A stretch of 64,000 nt of DNA from assembly GCA_021794205.1 (NCBI GenBank), contig JAJYRH010000011.1, positions 1 to 64,000 of the forward strand. The letters run 5' to 3'. The position numbers were made by a program, and so were the translations under genes. The notes beneath the pieces are model-generated. The model did not search any database and had not been told where the DNA came from. It was given only the letters and a program-made list of their open reading frames with translations. Every line of letters begins with the position of its first letter. Position 1 is the stretch's first letter. Source of the DNA: a bacterium (GTDB lineage: Bacteria; Vulcanimicrobiota; Vulcanimicrobiia; Vulcanimicrobiales; Vulcanimicrobiaceae). Shown here piece by piece: positions 3,167-10,444 of this stretch.

Positions 3167-4150
3167 GTGGCTCGAGTCGATGCGAAGTCGGTGCTCCTCG
3201 TGCGTCTTCTCGGCGCGCTCGACGAGGGGCGCCACTCGTTTGAGGGCCTGCGCGAACGGATCGCGCAGGACGGCCCCTTGCCGAGCCCTCGCTCCCTGCG
3301 TCGCTATCTCTCAGTGCTCGCGGACTCAAATTTCCCATGGTTTTACGACCGCACGCGCGGCGTCTACCGCTTCGTCGACGGCTATTCGCTGCGCGCGCTC
3401 AAGCTCGATCGCGGCGAGATCTTCGGGCTCGTAGCACTTCGTTCGCTAGCGAAATCGCTCGGAGGATCGGTCGGCGAAGCGGTCGATACCCTTGCGCGCC
3501 GGGTCGTCGGCTCGGGAGAGGGGCAGGGAGCGGAGCCGAGCTCTCTCTCGATCGGCATGCCGTTGCCGCGCGCACAACTCGACGAGCGAACGGAGAGCGT
3601 CCGTGAAACGATCGCTGCCGCCGAGCGCGACCGACGCGTCGTGACGATCGAATACGTCGATCGATACGGAAAAAGAAGCACCCGCGATATCGAGCCGTAT
3701 GGGCTGATCGTCGGGGGAGGGCGCTATTACTGCGTCGGCTACGACCGCATGCGGCGCGCGCGCCGAACCTTTGCCCTCGACGGTATCGAATCGGCGAGAT
3801 TAACGGCGCGTACCTACCAGCGCCCCGCCGAATTCGATATGGAAAAATGGATGTCGAGTTCGATCTCCGGCCTCATGACCGGCGATGCGGCGCACGAGGT
3901 CGTCGTTCGCTTCGACCCACGGATCGCAAAGGCGGCGGTCGCGGCCTCGTCGCGACTCGATCGCGACGTCCTTCAAGGGGAGGAGGGGGGCGTGGACCTT
4001 CGGTTGCGCGTCGCCGACCTCGATGAGTTGCTGCGTTGGGTGCTCGGCTGGGGCGGCGAGGCCCGGCTCCTTGGGCCGCCGAGCGCGCTGCTCGCTATGC
4101 GTCGCTTGCTCGCCGAGATCGCTCGCCACTACGATGGGCAGCCGACATGA
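3167..4150 (+). CDS. WYL-domain transcriptional regulator (YafY/PafBC type)
   Basis: 327 residues from GTG 3167, 18 bases after the clpC stop, so probably co-transcribed with it. The N-terminal 70 residues form a winged helix-turn-helix (LPSPRSLRRYLSVL recognition region). Residues about 145-215 are a WYL domain, with TIEYVDRYG, DIEPYGL and GRYYCVGYD in the usual order. The C-terminal 90 residues match a WCX extension. WYL proteins bind nucleic-acid or nucleotide ligands and often control DNA-damage or stress genes. The start is uncertain: the AAGG before GTG 3167 is too close, and GTG codons at 3191 and 3200 are alternatives. Confidence 0.85.
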   Translation: MARVDAKSVLLVRLLGALDEGRHSFEGLRERIAQDGPLPSPRSLRRYLSVLADSNFPWFYDRTRGVYRFVDGYSLRALKLDRGEIFGLVALRSLAKSLGGSVGEAVDTLARRVVGSGEGQGAEPSSLSIGMPLPRAQLDERTESVRETIAAAERDRRVVTIEYVDRYGKRSTRDIEPYGLIVGGGRYYCVGYDRMRRARRTFALDGIESARLTARTYQRPAEFDMEKWMSSSISGLMTGDAAHEVVVRFDPRIAKAAVAASSRLDRDVLQGEEGGVDLRLRVADLDELLRWVLGWGGEARLLGPPSALLAMRRLLAEIARHYDGQPT

Positions 4151-4185: not shown

Positions 4186-4701
4186 ATGAAACGTTTGACG
4201 ATGTTCGCCGCCCTCACCGGGCTTGCGCTCTCGCTGCTCGCGCCGAGACCGGCGATGAGTTTCTTCGGCGGTCTTCCGATCGACGGTATCCGGTGCGATG
4301 CGACCGAGGGCGTCGTGCTGCACATTCACAGCCATCTCCAGCTCGTCGACCGCGGTCACCCCGTAACCGTGCCGGCGTATATCGGTATTCCGGCGGTAAA
4401 TCCCCCGTGTCTCTACTGGCTTCACACGCACGATGCGACCGGGATCATTCACATCGAATCGCCGAGCAAACGCCCGTTTACGCTCGGTGAATTTTTTGAC
4501 GTTTGGGGGCAGAGCCTGAGTTGGAGCGCCGCCGGTACGCTCCGCGCGCCGCGCGGCAAACGCCTGCGCGTCATCGTGAATGGCCGTATCTGGCACGGGC
4601 GCTCGCCGCGCGACATTCTCCTCCGCAATCACGAAGACATCACCATTGAAGTGGGACCGCCTTTCGTCGCGCAGCGCCCGTTCGATTGGTCGCGGATGTA
4701 G
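4186..4701 (+). CDS. Exported protein with HxHxH and LHTHDATGIIHIE motifs, function unknown
   Basis: 171 residues with a Sec signal peptide (MKRLTMFAALTGLALSLLAP, cleavage probably near residue 24). The mature protein has two cysteines (C37, C75) that could form a disulfide. Histidine motifs are H46-I-H48-S-H50 and CLYWLHTHDATGIIHIES at 75-92. The C-terminal half contains VNGR-IWHG, then LRNHEDITIEVG near residue 146. I have a sense of similar uncharacterised proteins in Actinobacteria and Chloroflexi but cannot name a family. The histidines suggest metal or haem binding outside the cytoplasm (inference). It starts 10 bases upstream of hutH and may be transcribed with the hut genes. Confidence 0.7.
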   Translation: MKRLTMFAALTGLALSLLAPRPAMSFFGGLPIDGIRCDATEGVVLHIHSHLQLVDRGHPVTVPAYIGIPAVNPPCLYWLHTHDATGIIHIESPSKRPFTLGEFFDVWGQSLSWSAAGTLRAPRGKRLRVIVNGRIWHGRSPRDILLRNHEDITIEVGPPFVAQRPFDWSRM

Positions 4702-4710
4702 GGTGCGGCG

Positions 4711-6246
4711 ATGAGTACGGCACCTGCAACCATCGAACTCGACGGGCGTCGTCTCTCGCTCGAAAGCATCGCCGCAATTGCCGAAGGTGGCGCGCGGATC
4801 CGGGTGAGCGATGAGGCCAACGCTCGCGTCGCGCGGGCGCGTGCGTTCGTCGAGGAGCGCTTTGCCGACGGAGATGCGATCTATGGCGTGACCACCGGGT
4901 TCGGTCGGCTCGCCAACGTGCAGATCGATCCCGCCGATGCGGCGCTCCTGCAGTTGAATCTCGTCCGCAGTCACGCCGCCGGGACCGGCGCTCCGCTCGA
5001 AGAACGATACGTGCGCGCCGCCGGCGTGCTGCGCGTGAATTCGCTCGCCGCCGGGCATTCGGGAATCGCACCGGCGACGCTCGCGCTGCTCGTCGAAACG
5101 CTCAACCGCGGGGTCACGCCGGTCGTACCGATGCAGGGCTCCGTGGGCGCGAGCGGAGATCTCGCGCCGCTCGCCCACATGTCGCTTTTGTTGATCGGTG
5201 AAGGCGAAGCGCTCTATCGCGGCGAGCGTATGCCCGCCGCGCGAGCGCTCGCCGAAGCGGGCTTGGTGCCGGTGGTCTTAGGCGCGAAGGAAGGGCTCGC
5301 GCTCATCAACGGAACGCAGGTGATGACCGGCATCGCCGCGCTCTCGCTACTGCGCGCGCAACGGCTCGCCGACAGCGCCGACCTTATTGCGGCGATGTCG
5401 CTGGAGGCCTATCTCGGAACCGACGCGGTTTTCGATCGGCGCATCAATGCGCTACGTCCCCACCGCGGGCAACGCATCGTCGCTGCTCGTTTGCGTCGTT
5501 TCCTCGAAGGTTCGGAGATCATGCAATCGCATCGAGCCTGCGGCCGCGTCCAGGATCCGTATTCGTTCCGCTGCATTCCTGTGGTGCACGGAGCGGTTCG
5601 CGATTCGATCGAACACGCGCGCTCGGTCGCCGAAGTGGAGGCGAATTCGGTCACCGATAACCCGCTCGTCTTCCCCGAAGATCGCGTGTTTCTGAGCGGT
5701 GGAAATTTTCACGGAGAGCCGATCGCGCTCGCCATCGACTTTTTGAAAATGGCGATCTGCGAGATCGCATCGATCTCCGAGCGACGCCTGTATTTGCTCT
5801 TGAACGCCGGCGACCGCGACCTTCCGCTCTTTCTCGCTCGCAAGAGCGGGCTTCAATCGGGATTGATGATCGTGCAGTATGCCTCGGCGGCACTCGTCAA
5901 CGATAATAAAGCGCTCGCGTGGCCGAGTAGCGTCGATTCCATTCCGACCTCGGCCGGGCAAGAGGATCACGTCAGCATGGGCATGACCTCGGCGAACAAT
6001 CTCGTGCGGGTGCTCGACAACGTCGAGGGCTCCCTCGCATGCGAATTGCTCGGCGCGCTCGCGGCGACCGATTTTCGTCGACCGTTGCGAAGTGCTCGCG
6101 CGACGGAGGAACTCTACGCGCTCGCGCGGCGAACGATACTGCCGCTCACCGACGACCGCTCGCCCGCACCCGATATTCTTGCGGCACGCGAGCTCGTTCG
6201 CTCGGGCGCGATCGCAGAAATTTTCGCTCGAGCAACATCGGAGTAA
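4711..6246 (+). CDS. hutH: Histidine ammonia-lyase
   Basis: 511 residues, the family norm. It deaminates L-histidine to trans-urocanate, the first step of histidine degradation, in the cytoplasm. The signature GSVGASGDLAPLAH is present; the A147-S148-G149 triad cyclises to the MIO electrophile. Other conserved blocks include YGVTTGFG near residue 55, QDPYSFRC and SGGNFHGEP. It is the first enzyme gene of a hutH-hutU-hutI-hutF-like operon, with 15 bases before hutU. No hutC-type regulator gene is adjacent. Confidence 0.97.
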   Translation: MSTAPATIELDGRRLSLESIAAIAEGGARIRVSDEANARVARARAFVEERFADGDAIYGVTTGFGRLANVQIDPADAALLQLNLVRSHAAGTGAPLEERYVRAAGVLRVNSLAAGHSGIAPATLALLVETLNRGVTPVVPMQGSVGASGDLAPLAHMSLLLIGEGEALYRGERMPAARALAEAGLVPVVLGAKEGLALINGTQVMTGIAALSLLRAQRLADSADLIAAMSLEAYLGTDAVFDRRINALRPHRGQRIVAARLRRFLEGSEIMQSHRACGRVQDPYSFRCIPVVHGAVRDSIEHARSVAEVEANSVTDNPLVFPEDRVFLSGGNFHGEPIALAIDFLKMAICEIASISERRLYLLLNAGDRDLPLFLARKSGLQSGLMIVQYASAALVNDNKALAWPSSVDSIPTSAGQEDHVSMGMTSANNLVRVLDNVEGSLACELLGALAATDFRRPLRSARATEELYALARRTILPLTDDRSPAPDILAARELVRSGAIAEIFARATSE

Positions 6247-6261: not shown

Positions 6262-7923
6262 ATGAGTATGACGTTATCGGGGCCACGGCCGGTACGGGCC
6301 GCGCGTGGTTCGGAGTTGACCTGTCTGGGATGGCCGCAGGAAGCCGCGTTGCGCATGCTGATGAACAATCTCGATCCCGAGGTTGCCGAGCGCCCCGACG
6401 ACCTCGTCGTTTACGGCGGTAGCGGGCGCGCGGCGCGCTCTTGGGAAGCGTTCGATGCGCTCGTTCGCACGTTGCGTCGCCTCAAGAGCGACGAAACGAT
6501 GGTGGTGCAGAGCGGCAAACCGGTCGCCGTTTGGAAGACGCACGAACGCGCGCCGCGGGTCTTGATCGCCAATAGCAATCTCGTTCCGAAGTGGGCCGAT
6601 TGGGAGACCTTCCGCTCGCTCGAGGCGCAAGGGCTTACGATGTACGGGCAGATGACCGCCGGGTCGTGGATCTACATCGGCACTCAGGGCATCGTGCAGG
6701 GCACCTACGAAACGTTCGCCGAGCTCGCGCGCCAACATTACGGCGGCACGTTGCGCGGCCGCGTCGCGCTCACGGCGGGTATCGGCGGCATGGGCGGCGC
6801 GCAGCCGCTCGCGATTACGATGTGCGAGGGCATCGCGTTGGTGGTCGACGTCGACCGCGCGCGCTTGGAGCGCCGCCGCGATCTGCGCTACCTCGATCTC
6901 GTCGTCGATTCGCGCGATGAGGCGCTCGCCCGCGTCGAACGCGCTCGGCGAGACGGAGAGGCGATCTCGGTGGGATACCAAGGGAATGCCGCCGATGAAT
7001 TTGCCGCGCTCTTTGCAGCGGGGCTGCGCCCCGATGCCGTGACCGATCAAACCTCCGCGCACGATATGCTCAACGGCTACGTTCCATCGGGGCTGACGCT
7101 CGCCGAGGCCGACGCGCTGCGCGCGAGCGATCCGGCGGAGTACGAACGGCGCAGTTACGAGACTGCCGGCCGACACGTGGAAGCGATGTTGCAATTTCTC
7201 GACGCCGGTGCGGTGGTCTTCGATTACGGAAATAACCTGCGCGAAGCGGCGAAGAAGGCCGGCGTCAAACGCGCCTTCGATTTTCCGGGCTTCGTTCCGG
7301 CATTTATCCGGCCGCTCTTCTGCCGTGGGAGCGGGCCGTTTCGTTTTGCCGCGCTCTCTGGAGATCCGGCTGATATCGCTCGCTGCGATCGCGAACTCCT
7401 GGCGCTCTTCCCCGACGACGCGCATCTCCATCGGTGGCTCACGATGGCGCGAGAACGGATCGCCTTCCAAGGTTTGCCCGCGCGCATCTGCTGGTTGGGC
7501 TACGGAGATCGAGCGAAGGCGGGACTCGCGTTCAACGATCTCGTGCGTCGTGGAGAACTTTCGGCGCCGATCGTCATCGGGCGCGATCATCTCGATACGG
7601 GGAGCGTCGCCTCGCCCTATCGAGAGACCGAGGGCATGCGTGACGGAAGCGACGCCATCGCGGATTGGCCGATTCTCAACGCGATGCTCAATACCGCAGC
7701 GGGCGCGCATTGGGTGAGCTTTCACCACGGCGGCGGCGTCGGCATCGGGTATAGCTTGCACGCGGGCATGGTGGTCGTCGCCGATGGTTCGCGCGACGCG
7801 GAAGAGCGCTTGGGCGCGGTCCTCACCACCGACTGCGGTATGGGCGTCGTGCGTCACGCCGATGCCGGGTACGAAACGGCGATCGAGACCGCCGATGAGA
7901 AGGGCATCGATTGGCGGCTCTAG
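6262..7923 (+). CDS. hutU: Urocanate hydratase
   Basis: 553 residues, full length. It converts urocanate to 4-imidazolone-5-propanoate using tightly bound NAD+ as an electrophile. The NAD-binding motif [14 protein letters not shown] begins near residue 170. The C-terminal [15 protein letters not shown] block is present, as is the [12 protein letters not shown] segment. The start at ATG 6262 is supported by AAAGGAG about 7 bases upstream. Its last codons overlap the start of hutI by 13 bases, implying coupled translation. Confidence 0.97.
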
Positions 7924-9152
7924 CGGGTGCGCCGCCGCTCTTGCTGCGCGGCGCCGCGCTCTTGACCTGCGATACCGAGGCTCCGCAGCAGGGAATTACC
8001 TTCGAGGATCTTGGGTTCGTCGAACGCGGCGCGATCTTGGTGCGCGACGGGCGCATTGCTGCAATGGGCGAGCGGGTCGAGGTGGAGCGCGCGGCGAGCG
8101 GCTTCGATTGCGAGCTCCTCGATCTCCCCGACGCCGTCCTCGCTCCCGGGTTCGTCGACGCACATACCCACCCGCTCTTCTCCGGAAATCGCGAAGCGGA
8201 TTTTCAAGCGCGTCTGCGACACGAGCCCTCTCCGTTGGGGATGCTCTATACCGTTACGCGCACGCGCGAAGCGTTGCTGGCACCGGAGCGTTTTTGGTCC
8301 GGCGATGTCGAGCCGCGCCTGCGAGCGATGCTCGCACACGGAACGACGACCGCCGAAGTGAAGACGGGATATGCGCTGCATCGCCCCGGTGAGCTGGAGT
8401 TACTCGATCTGCTCGCACGCGCGGCATCCGACGAGCGGCTTCCGTGGATTTTGCCGACCTTTCTCGGCGCGCACGCGGTCCCACCGGAGTTTCCCGATGC
8501 CGATGGGTACGTCGACTATTTAATCGATCAGTGCTTGCCCTTCGCGAGGGTTCATGGCGCGCGCTCTGCCGATGCGTTCTGCGAGCCGGGCTTTTTTTCG
8601 GCGTCGCAAACCGAACGCTACCTCGAGGCCGCGCGTCGAGAGGGGCTGCGGTTGCGCGTCCATTGCGATGAAATGCAACATGGCGGTGCGGCGACCATGG
8701 CCCTCGCCCTCGGAGTCGATGCGATCGACCACGGCAATTACATCACCGACGGCGACGTCGAACGTTTGGCCGGTGGGGAGAGCGTACTCGTCGCTTGCCC
8801 GGCGACGATCGACTACCTCGGCTTGGAACGGCACGCTCCCGTGCGCGCCGTCCTCGAACGCGGCGGGCGCGTTGCGTTTGCGAGCGACTATAATCCGGGA
8901 ACCTCGCCGTGCCTCAACCTCCAGCACGTAGCGTACCTCGGAAGAAAGATCTTCGCATTGAGCGCCGCCGAGGCACTCGACGCCGTAACGCGTCAGGCGG
9001 CGCGGAGCCTTCGCGTCGACCGCGGCGTGCTGCGCGTCGGCGGGCATGCCGATATCGTTGCCCTGGGAATCGCGGAGCCCGACGAATTCGGGTGGTTGCA
9101 CGGCGGTAATCTCGCGCGTACGGTCGTTCGTTCCGGGCGCATCGTACGATGA
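7911..9152 (+). CDS. hutI: Imidazolonepropionase
   Basis: 413 residues. It hydrolyses imidazolone propionate to N-formimino-L-glutamate, third step of the hut pathway. It is an amidohydrolase-superfamily metalloenzyme; the metal-binding H85-T-H87 lies in [16 protein letters not shown]. Also present are [17 protein letters not shown] and [15 protein letters not shown], all characteristic of HutI. The best start is TTG 7911, inside the end of hutU; no ATG or GTG is available nearby in this frame, so initiation probably depends on coupling to hutU. It overlaps the next gene by ATGA. Confidence 0.95.
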
Positions 9153-10444
9153 GCGAACTTTTTATCGCCGCTCGTGCGATCGTCGGCGGCGAGGAGCGGT
9201 GCGAGATCGGCTTTCTCGTCGAGAACGGCCGTTTTGCAAAAGTCGGCGATGCGAAAACGCTCGCGCTTGAGGCGGCGCATCACGGAACGCCGACCCGTCG
9301 CTTTCCCGAGGATCGCGTGCTGATTCCGGGCTTTATCAACGGGCATAGCCACGCCTATCAAGTGCTCTTGCGCGGCTGGGCCGACGATTGGGGATTCGAC
9401 CGGTGGCGCAGCGATGCGCTCTATCGCGTCGTACCGCAATTAACCCCCGATGATATCTACTGGGTCTTTCTCTTTGCCTTTAGCGAGATGCTCGCCGCAG
9501 GTATTACCACAGTGGCCGAGTTCTTCTATCTCAATGGGGAGGGAAACGCTCGCGCCGAAGCGGCGATCCGGGCCGCTCGCGAGACCGGAATTCGGCTGGT
9601 ATTCGCGCGGACGTGGATGGATGCGGCGTACGCTCCCGACGCCTATAGAGAAACGATCGCCGACGCGCGGTCGAGGAGCGAAGCGTTGCTTTCCCGCCAT
9701 TCCGATATTCACTTTTGCGTCGCGCCGCATTCCTTGCACGCCGCCTCGCCGGCGATGATCGAAGCCGCGGCGGCGTTTTCCGCCGAATACGACTGCATGT
9801 TGCACGTGCACGTTGCGGAGGCGGCATACGAAGGAGAGGCGACGTTGCGGGAGCACGGCGTCACCCCTATCCGCTTCCTCGACCGGCTCGGCGCGCTCAA
9901 CGAACGCTGCGTTGCGGTGCACGCCATTTACATCGACGACGAAGAGAAGCGACTGCTCGCGGAGCGCGGCGCGCGCGTCATTCATAATCCGATGACGAAT
10001 CAATATCTCGGCGACGGCATCTGCGATATTTCGAGCCTGCACGCGCTCGGCGTGCCGCTCGGGCTCGGCACCGATGCCGACGTGAAGCCGTCGGCGATCG
10101 ACGAAATGCGCGCCGCGTCGCTGCTGCAGAAGATCGCGCGGACCGACGGGGCGGCATTTGGAGCGCGCGCGGCGTTCGATCTGGCGACGGCGAGCGGTGC
10201 GCGCGCGCTGCGTGTCGATGCCGGACGGCTCGAAGAGGGTGCGTTCGCCGATTTCGTCGTCCTCGATGCTCGCGGGATCGACCCCTGGGCGCCGGCGGTG
10301 AACGCGCTGGTCTATCGCGGCGAAGATGCGTGGGTGCAGGGCACGTTCGTCAGCGGACGGCGCGTCGCCGGTCGCGAGCCGAGTGCGGCGGCGAGCGCGG
10401 CGCGGGAGCACCTACGGAGTATCGCGGAACGCCTCATCCCGTAG
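9149..10444 (+). CDS. hutF: Amidohydrolase, probable formimidoylglutamate deiminase (HutF-like)
   Basis: 431 residues, ATGA overlap with hutI. Amidohydrolase superfamily: H66-S-H68 in the first metal motif, APHSLHAASP, HVHVAE, HAIYID and GLGTDADVKPS follow in order. Several blocks recall HutF, which turns formiminoglutamate into formylglutamate plus ammonia: YRVVPQLTPDDI, EMLAAGITTVAEF, NQYLGDGI. The EMRAASLLQK segment is closer to ATZ/TRZ and methylthioadenosine deaminases. Genome position decides the call: it follows hutI directly. Uncertain point: a HutG-type formylglutamate hydrolase is not in the window, while a formiminotransferase gene (33084-33962) is. The end overlaps the convergent hydrolase gene by 33 bases. 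Confidence 0.68.
   Translation: MSELFIAARAIVGGEERCEIGFLVENGRFAKVGDAKTLALEAAHHGTPTRRFPEDRVLIPGFINGHSHAYQVLLRGWADDWGFDRWRSDALYRVVPQLTPDDIYWVFLFAFSEMLAAGITTVAEFFYLNGEGNARAEAAIRAARETGIRLVFARTWMDAAYAPDAYRETIADARSRSEALLSRHSDIHFCVAPHSLHAASPAMIEAAAAFSAEYDCMLHVHVAEAAYEGEATLREHGVTPIRFLDRLGALNERCVAVHAIYIDDEEKRLLAERGARVIHNPMTNQYLGDGICDISSLHALGVPLGLGTDADVKPSAIDEMRAASLLQKIARTDGAAFGARAAFDLATASGARALRVDAGRLEEGAFADFVVLDARGIDPWAPAVNALVYRGEDAWVQGTFVSGRRVAGREPSAAASAAREHLRSIAERLIP

Follow-up and report, generated by a model that had tools for sequence, protein, structure and literature searches.

Gene X of the window (the whole stretch of 64,000 nucleotides analysed, from a bacterium of the Vulcanimicrobiaceae) is read here, at about even chances, as a secreted protein that consists of one domain and belongs to an unnamed beta-grasp family of the extracytoplasmic space, with a metal site, most likely for copper, that serves or buffers the metal for other systems. 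We infer metal binding by the family from residue conservation, predicted fold and gene order; copper is the most likely metal on the ground of genomic context. The family itself is new, as judged from the Pfam, NCBIfam (searched with X of the window) and PDB copies used and from literature searches, while the beta-grasp fold and the general kind of protein, an extracytoplasmic metal-binding domain, are known.

A broader proposal is put forward tentatively, as possible and still rather doubtful: that an unnamed copper-handling extracytoplasmic beta-grasp domain lies beside copper enzymes in bacteria and archaea, in SCO1/multicopper oxidase clusters among others, that its member in the archaeal ammonia monooxygenase (amo) cluster is a further AMO component or assembly factor derived from a copper-binding ancestor, and that the domain was recruited in Eremiobacterota to histidine catabolism for copper-histidine. 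If the family does handle copper, it would represent a new fold for extracytoplasmic copper trafficking, provide an initial clue to an unnamed gene of the archaeal amo cluster, and connect histidine catabolism with the handling of metals in a phylum about which little is known.

Gene X and its locus

The features of X and the genes around it are collected in Table 1. The sequence-only reading had described an exported protein with two cysteines and five or more histidines, and this is borne out by the N-terminus, where KR followed by a hydrophobic run is recognised by eye as a signal peptide, and by C37, C75, H46, H48, H50, H80, H82 and H89. The first histidine block reads H46-I-H48-S-H50, and the second, CLYWLHTHDATGIIHIE, holds H80, H82, H89 and E91. 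The gene is under purifying selection, as evident from dN/dS values of about 0.04-0.14 against nine orthologues of the window's genus. Neither Pfam nor NCBIfam yields a match for X at E ≤ 0.1, and a sequence search of the PDB gives nothing significant (three chance-level rows, best E 0.21). No second copy of its domain was found in the window's own genome (2.2 Mb searched), which is counted against copper.

Table 1. Positions of X, its conserved elements and the neighbouring genes in the window
Feature	Position	Strand	Evidence
WYL-domain transcription regulator	3167..4150	+	PF13280 3e-17, PF25583 3.7e-13
X, single-domain histidine-rich beta-grasp protein (predicted), 171 aa, signal peptide-bearing	4186..4701	+	ORF; family conservation; model
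X domain, residues about 31-159	within 4186..4701	+	model pLDDT 91.1, pTM 0.80
X signal peptide MKRLTMFAALTGLALSLLAPRPAMS, cut site probably near residue 25	4186..4260	+	by eye
X C37, conserved, possible disulfide with C75	4294..4296	+	144 of 153 domains
X H46-x-H48-x-H50, strand 45-55	4321..4335	+	149, 149 and 102 of 153 domains; model
X C75, conserved	4408..4410	+	146 of 153 domains
X H80-T-H82, between strand 45-55 and strand 87-92	4423..4431	+	152 and 150 of 153 domains
X H89-x-E91, strand 87-92	4450..4458	+	151 and 150 of 153 domains
X FTLGEFFDVW core helix	4477..4506	+	model helix 100-107; W107 in 151 of 153 domains
hutH, histidine ammonia-lyase	4711..6246	+	TIGR01225 3.5e-199
hutU, urocanate hydratase	6262..7923	+	TIGR01228 3e-278
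hutI-like imidazolonepropionase	7911..9152	+	TIGR01224 1.7e-79, 267 bits, below the 298-bit cut-off
hutF-like formimidoylglutamate deiminase	9149..10444	+	NF006681 6e-68, 230 bits, below the 362-bit cut-off

The WYL regulator ends 35 bases upstream of X. The gap between X and hutH, earlier given as 10 bases, is actually 9 (4702-4710), and a purine-rich stretch at the stop codon of X could be the ribosome-binding site of hutH, which makes translational coupling plausible. Substrates of the hutI-like and hutF-like hydrolases are not certain because their scores fall below the NCBIfam cut-offs. No copper gene was found among the searched neighbours of X in the window, which counts against copper as the metal, and a literature search on hut in WPS-2 / Eremiobacterota returned nothing.

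Distribution and conserved residues of the family

Matches at E ≤ 1e-3 occur in 70 of 98 genomes searched, the window's own included, and many of these have at least two. A pattern scan of species genomes yielded 448 relatives in bacteria and archaea, the best 80 of which (L079-L158) include Actinobacteria, Chloroflexi, Dormiibacter, Proteobacteria, Anoxybacillus and Thaumarchaeota; the closest named relatives among the matches listed are Candidatus Eremiobacterota MAGs. The domain is also present in 24 plasmid records. Of 150 genomes from the class to which Nitrosocosmicus (G149) belongs, 69 match the family at E ≤ 1e-6. Eight matches were counted in one archaeal genome, although two of them are probably pieces of a single gene. 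The phylum of the proteobacterial locus L155 has the family in at least 2 of 299 genomes, one being that of L155 itself, a lower bound because at most 12 candidates were scored per genome.

An alignment of 61 rows (A2), comprising X of the window and 60 non-redundant domains from 80 loci, has invariant columns that include E41, H46, H48, W78, H80, H82, G86, H89, E91, P93 and W107. Part of the conservation at L100-W107 in A2 is built in, since that motif served as the scan pattern, which contained none of the histidines. All 80 loci passed the requirement for a second histidine block at domain excision, so none was dropped. A wider set of 153 distinct domains, taken from 184 hits (E ≤ 1e-3, all loci gathered by then), purposely includes diverged paralogues that are 30-40% identical. 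Each of the residues H46, H48, H80, H82, H89 and E91 is retained by 149-152 of these domains, which upholds the earlier impression of a recurring family signature rather than a random text. W107 is as constant and both cysteines are nearly so (Table 1), and E41 (121 domains) and H50 (102) are less so. X of the window has the whole set by which the family is defined, namely those six residues and the FTLG.FF..W helix. As judged by eye, many members carry an N-terminal membrane-helix anchor or are lipoprotein-like.

No entry for the family was found in the Pfam copy searched with the 61 members. The weak Pfam names that appeared among them (DUF1254 in 16 of 61, best 5e-4; Bromo_MP; Amanitin) were taken as chance; ten rows were checked singly and all lay below the curated cut-off, the best DUF1254 row not being among the ten. 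The A2 profile had zero matches in the PDB, and a literature search by the motif text of X found no paper.

Predicted fold and nearest structures

AlphaFold2 run on A2 gave the model listed in Table 1, and on a second alignment headed by L155 (A4) it gave a model with pLDDT 88.5 and pTM 0.83; A4 and A2 have most rows in common. The elements follow the order strand 45-55, strand 87-92, helix 100-107, strand 128-131, strand 134-135 and strand 150-156. Both models agree on a predicted beta-grasp fold with a strand-strand-helix-strand-strand-strand core, although strand 4 of the first model spans just two residues and all Z values are below 8. Values in this range, according to the tool note of VIA-align, may reflect only a common arrangement of elements. 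Beyond Z, the fold is supported by the agreement of the models, by the element order, and by weak ThiS hits that cover the last strands (VNG...I.L..HDEI) in 6 of 61 members (best E 0.0068). Foldseek alone gave no structural match at E ≤ 1e-3, nor did the viral structure library at the same threshold.

For both models VIA-align ranked 3u7z on top, followed by the beta-domains of transcobalamin and intrinsic factor and then by Urm1-, MoaD- and ThiS-like proteins. The entry 3u7z (Ruminococcus gnavus RUMGNA_00854, 'putative metal binding protein') superposes on the A2 model with Z 7.7 and rmsd 2.5 over 86 residues, and on the A4 model with Z 6.8 and rmsd 2.5 over 82 residues. X has a histidine-bearing segment between strands 45-55 and 87-92. 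The 3u7z protein is presumably a DUF4430 member (PF14478); the DUF4430 profile matched none of the 61 members of the X family at E ≤ 1, and none of 148 genomes of the phylum at E ≤ 1e-5.

The beta-domains of transcobalamin and intrinsic factor, of the SLBB superfamily, are extracytoplasmic like X and resemble it in fold (Z about 5.6-6.7) at about 8-12% identity, whereas the conserved patch of X is its set of histidines and glutamate. The model of X also has a short hairpin after the core helix (115-116/119-120). No sequence link from X to the transcobalamin-like SLBB clade was found. ThiS, MoaD and Urm1 have the core beta-grasp that is predicted for X, and X differs in being exported or membrane-anchored and in its histidine-bearing insert. 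SCO1/SenC and CopC, whose genes adjoin some members of the family, are extracytoplasmic too, but their fold is different, and neither X of the window nor any of the 61 members has a SCO1/SenC or CopC match in Pfam.

Genomic context

The loci that resemble that of the window (type 1) number 47 as fetched (L001-L030, L049-L057, L212-L219), some further matches having been left out; L001-L030 are biased to close relatives because they are the 30 best matches. Upstream of X, 41 of the 47 have a WYL gene on the same strand, at most 3.5 kb and generally no more than 500 bases away, and the loci without it (L016, L018, L024, L027, L213, L218) have only about 0.2-1.5 kb of upstream sequence. hutH, detected by tblastn, directly follows X in 32 (all 30 of L001-L030, L051 and L212), and the other 15 have no hutH beside X. 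The WYL gene is thus the wider partner, and hut is a partner in one part of the tree. The place of X beside hut, pointed out in the sequence-only reading together with the advice to look for recurring neighbours, is real in the window's lineage, where the order WYL - X - hutH recurs across many genera of the window's family. The hut link is not the general context of the X family, since other members adjoin SCO1, a multicopper oxidase, the amo cluster or no recurrent neighbour.

A transmembrane-anchored paralogue of X (type 2) was collected at 39 loci from 39 genomes. In 29 of 39 an SCO1 gene follows it on the same strand, at most 4 kb downstream, and five of the ten loci lacking SCO1 (L183, L193, L195, L199, L208) have under 2.5 kb of downstream sequence. 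Two other neighbours of type 2 count against copper: an epimerase gene upstream in 38 of 39, a figure that is partly circular because type 2 was picked as second-best copies, most of them with the epimerase beside, and an Nramp gene in 20 of the 39 clusters. The Nramp family transports Mn or Fe. In one genus of the sister family, 4 of 4 loci have SCO1 on the other strand, no more than 120 bases away; near type 1 it was seen in 0 of 27 loci searched (L039-L057, L212-L219).

In a quick tree of 124 rows and 129 columns, with 53 of 121 inner branches left open, types 1 and 2 are largely separate clades. L067 falls within type 1, L121, L037 and L068 fall near it, and L075 falls within type 2; L067, L068 and L075 are without the neighbours typical of the two types, L075 having no epimerase, Nramp or SCO1. 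The four sister-family loci with SCO1 beside X do not group with the remaining type-2 rows; the tree places them, with no branch support, near L032, L152 and L155.

One cluster (L060:2671-10134) contains cytochrome c, a multicopper oxidase, the epimerase, type-2 X, Nramp and SCO1, and parts of it are seen again in many genera of the bacterial family, chiefly epimerase - X - SCO1.

Outside Eremiobacterota, X of the proteobacterial L155 lies between a multicopper oxidase and SCO1, the called frames being 35 and 9 bases apart. On a Mycolicibacterium plasmid X is split over two annotated genes, with CopC and a regulator of the BlaI/MecI/CopY family in its vicinity, and three Streptacidiphilus loci have SCO1 at 2-4 kb on the other strand. 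The copy on an Acidovorax plasmid is accompanied by a molybdopterin oxidoreductase, cytochrome c and a high-potential iron-sulfur protein. On a Pseudarthrobacter plasmid merA and merB lie upstream of X, an observation counted against copper. So is the finding that, among 140 proteins flanking loci outside Eremiobacterota (two called genes each side; 94 families found, 69 with one protein each), no copper family had two or more matches; CtaG appears once among the families listed.

The relative in the archaeal ammonia monooxygenase cluster

Some weak matches in small archaeal genomes are to a protein of roughly 175 amino acids that starts with MIWPGMGDP or nearly so (MNWPGLGNP, MFWPGMGDP), a type found at 9 of 20 archaeal loci fetched (L222-L226, L228-L231). 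In 9 of 9 loci its gene sits between amoB and amoY (for example L222:3416-3949); L229 and L231 have a further small ORF towards amoB. AmoA, AmoB and AmoC were confirmed by Pfam in L222; amoX, amoY and amoZ are putative assignments by gene order. Passages of Hodgskiss et al. 2023 (PMC10030591) place amoABCX and amoYZ one to two genes apart in most Nitrosopumilaceae and leave the gene between them unnamed.

A profile of the nine sequences matched A2 with 98.2% probability (E 4e-14, single comparison); Pfam gave only a weak match (2 of 9 members, best E 0.017), and the PDB none at E ≤ 1. All nine carry other residues in place of H46, H48, H80 and H82. Both cysteines are kept in 9 of 9, E91 in 8 and H89 in 4, and the fold residues remain. 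Such a joint loss, with fold and cysteines intact, is expected if the four histidines form one site. A relative that lacks most of the site also counts against copper. The amo-cluster copy, having lost most ligands, has probably turned into a structural or docking part.

Putative metal site and alternative readings

In the model, strand 45-55 bears H46 and H48 at alternating positions and strand 87-92 does the same with H89 and E91, while H80 and H82 immediately precede the second of these strands, an arrangement that makes a single site plausible. H46, H48, H80, H82, H89 and E91 would converge on one metal, with a C37-C75 disulfide probably pinning the site; copper would be the metal bound, with less assurance than the site itself. 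A metal site, with copper ahead of zinc, is favoured by the combined evidence of the constant histidine/glutamate residues, their joint disappearance from the amo relative, the predicted fold, and gene neighbours concerned with redox chemistry and copper. The metal, haem or quinone binding suggested by the sequence-only reading is thereby narrowed to metal as the best reading, no pointer to haem or quinone having been found. Conservation of the histidines, on which that suggestion had been made to depend, holds in the canonical family, and four of the five are lost in the archaeal amo-cluster branch. Structure prediction, likewise advised, yielded the beta-grasp model with the 'putative metal binding protein' 3u7z on top; the placement of the metal is putative.

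The likeliest task of X would be to hold copper at the outer face of the membrane and to hand it to partner proteins or keep it from them, the partners of the membrane-anchored paralogue being possibly SCO1-linked proteins. In the hut operon, X would handle copper that arrives as copper-histidine complexes upon histidine uptake and breakdown, perhaps under control of the WYL regulator. Histidine binds both Cu and Zn, and this, together with the published hut-zinc link of Acinetobacter, makes coping with histidine-borne metal a reasonable putative role. No literature on periplasmic copper-binding beta-grasp proteins was found.

Sites of histidine and glutamate fit Zn as well as Cu(II), and X could use the same site to buffer zinc released, or carried as zinc-histidine, during histidine catabolism. 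This would account for hut directly, and passages of PMC10903455 and PMC10269061 describe HutT of Acinetobacter baumannii as importing histidine-zinc and HutH as freeing the zinc. However, the Pfam-named neighbours, a part of all neighbours, include no Zn transporter, and the genes that recur as partners are those of SCO1, a multicopper oxidase and AMO; zinc is considered unlikely. Somewhat less probable still is an extracytoplasmic metalloenzyme, in which the five histidines and the glutamate make a mono- or dinuclear catalytic site. Five near-invariant histidines and a glutamate exceed the needs of a simple carrier, conserved W, G and P residues surround them, and the multiple matches in one archaeal genome point the same way, but X is a small single domain, no partner enzyme set recurs over phyla, and the beta-grasp scaffold is more often a binding domain.

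The least favoured alternative, to which only a slim chance is given, is that the partner of X is a cofactor or other small organic ligand, in the manner of the B12-binding transcobalamin-like SLBB domains, and that the histidines contact this ligand. The transcobalamin and intrinsic-factor beta-domains among the nearest folds speak for it, as does the short hairpin after the helix, since the transcobalamin-like clade has a beta-hairpin inserted following the core helix, as passages of PMC1796856 describe. Against this, Z values under 8 may mean a common arrangement alone, and the conserved histidine/glutamate patch lies before the helix, not after it.

Other domain architectures

Two Burkholderiales loci (L034:5179-6420 and L038:5218-6423) encode two tandem domains, of which the first has lost several conserved residues, histidines included, and the second is intact. 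Several archaeal proteins (L115:124-807, L131, L144, L146, L147, L151, L156) combine, as judged by eye, a C2H2-like zinc finger, a membrane helix and an outer X domain, the finger preceding the helix in L115, L144 and L146. In Anoxybacillus (L031:3399-5435 and L139:6375-8441) the X domain forms the C-terminus of an ABC permease, which in L031 is annotated as SkfF of a sporulation-killing-factor-like operon and in L139 is unannotated.
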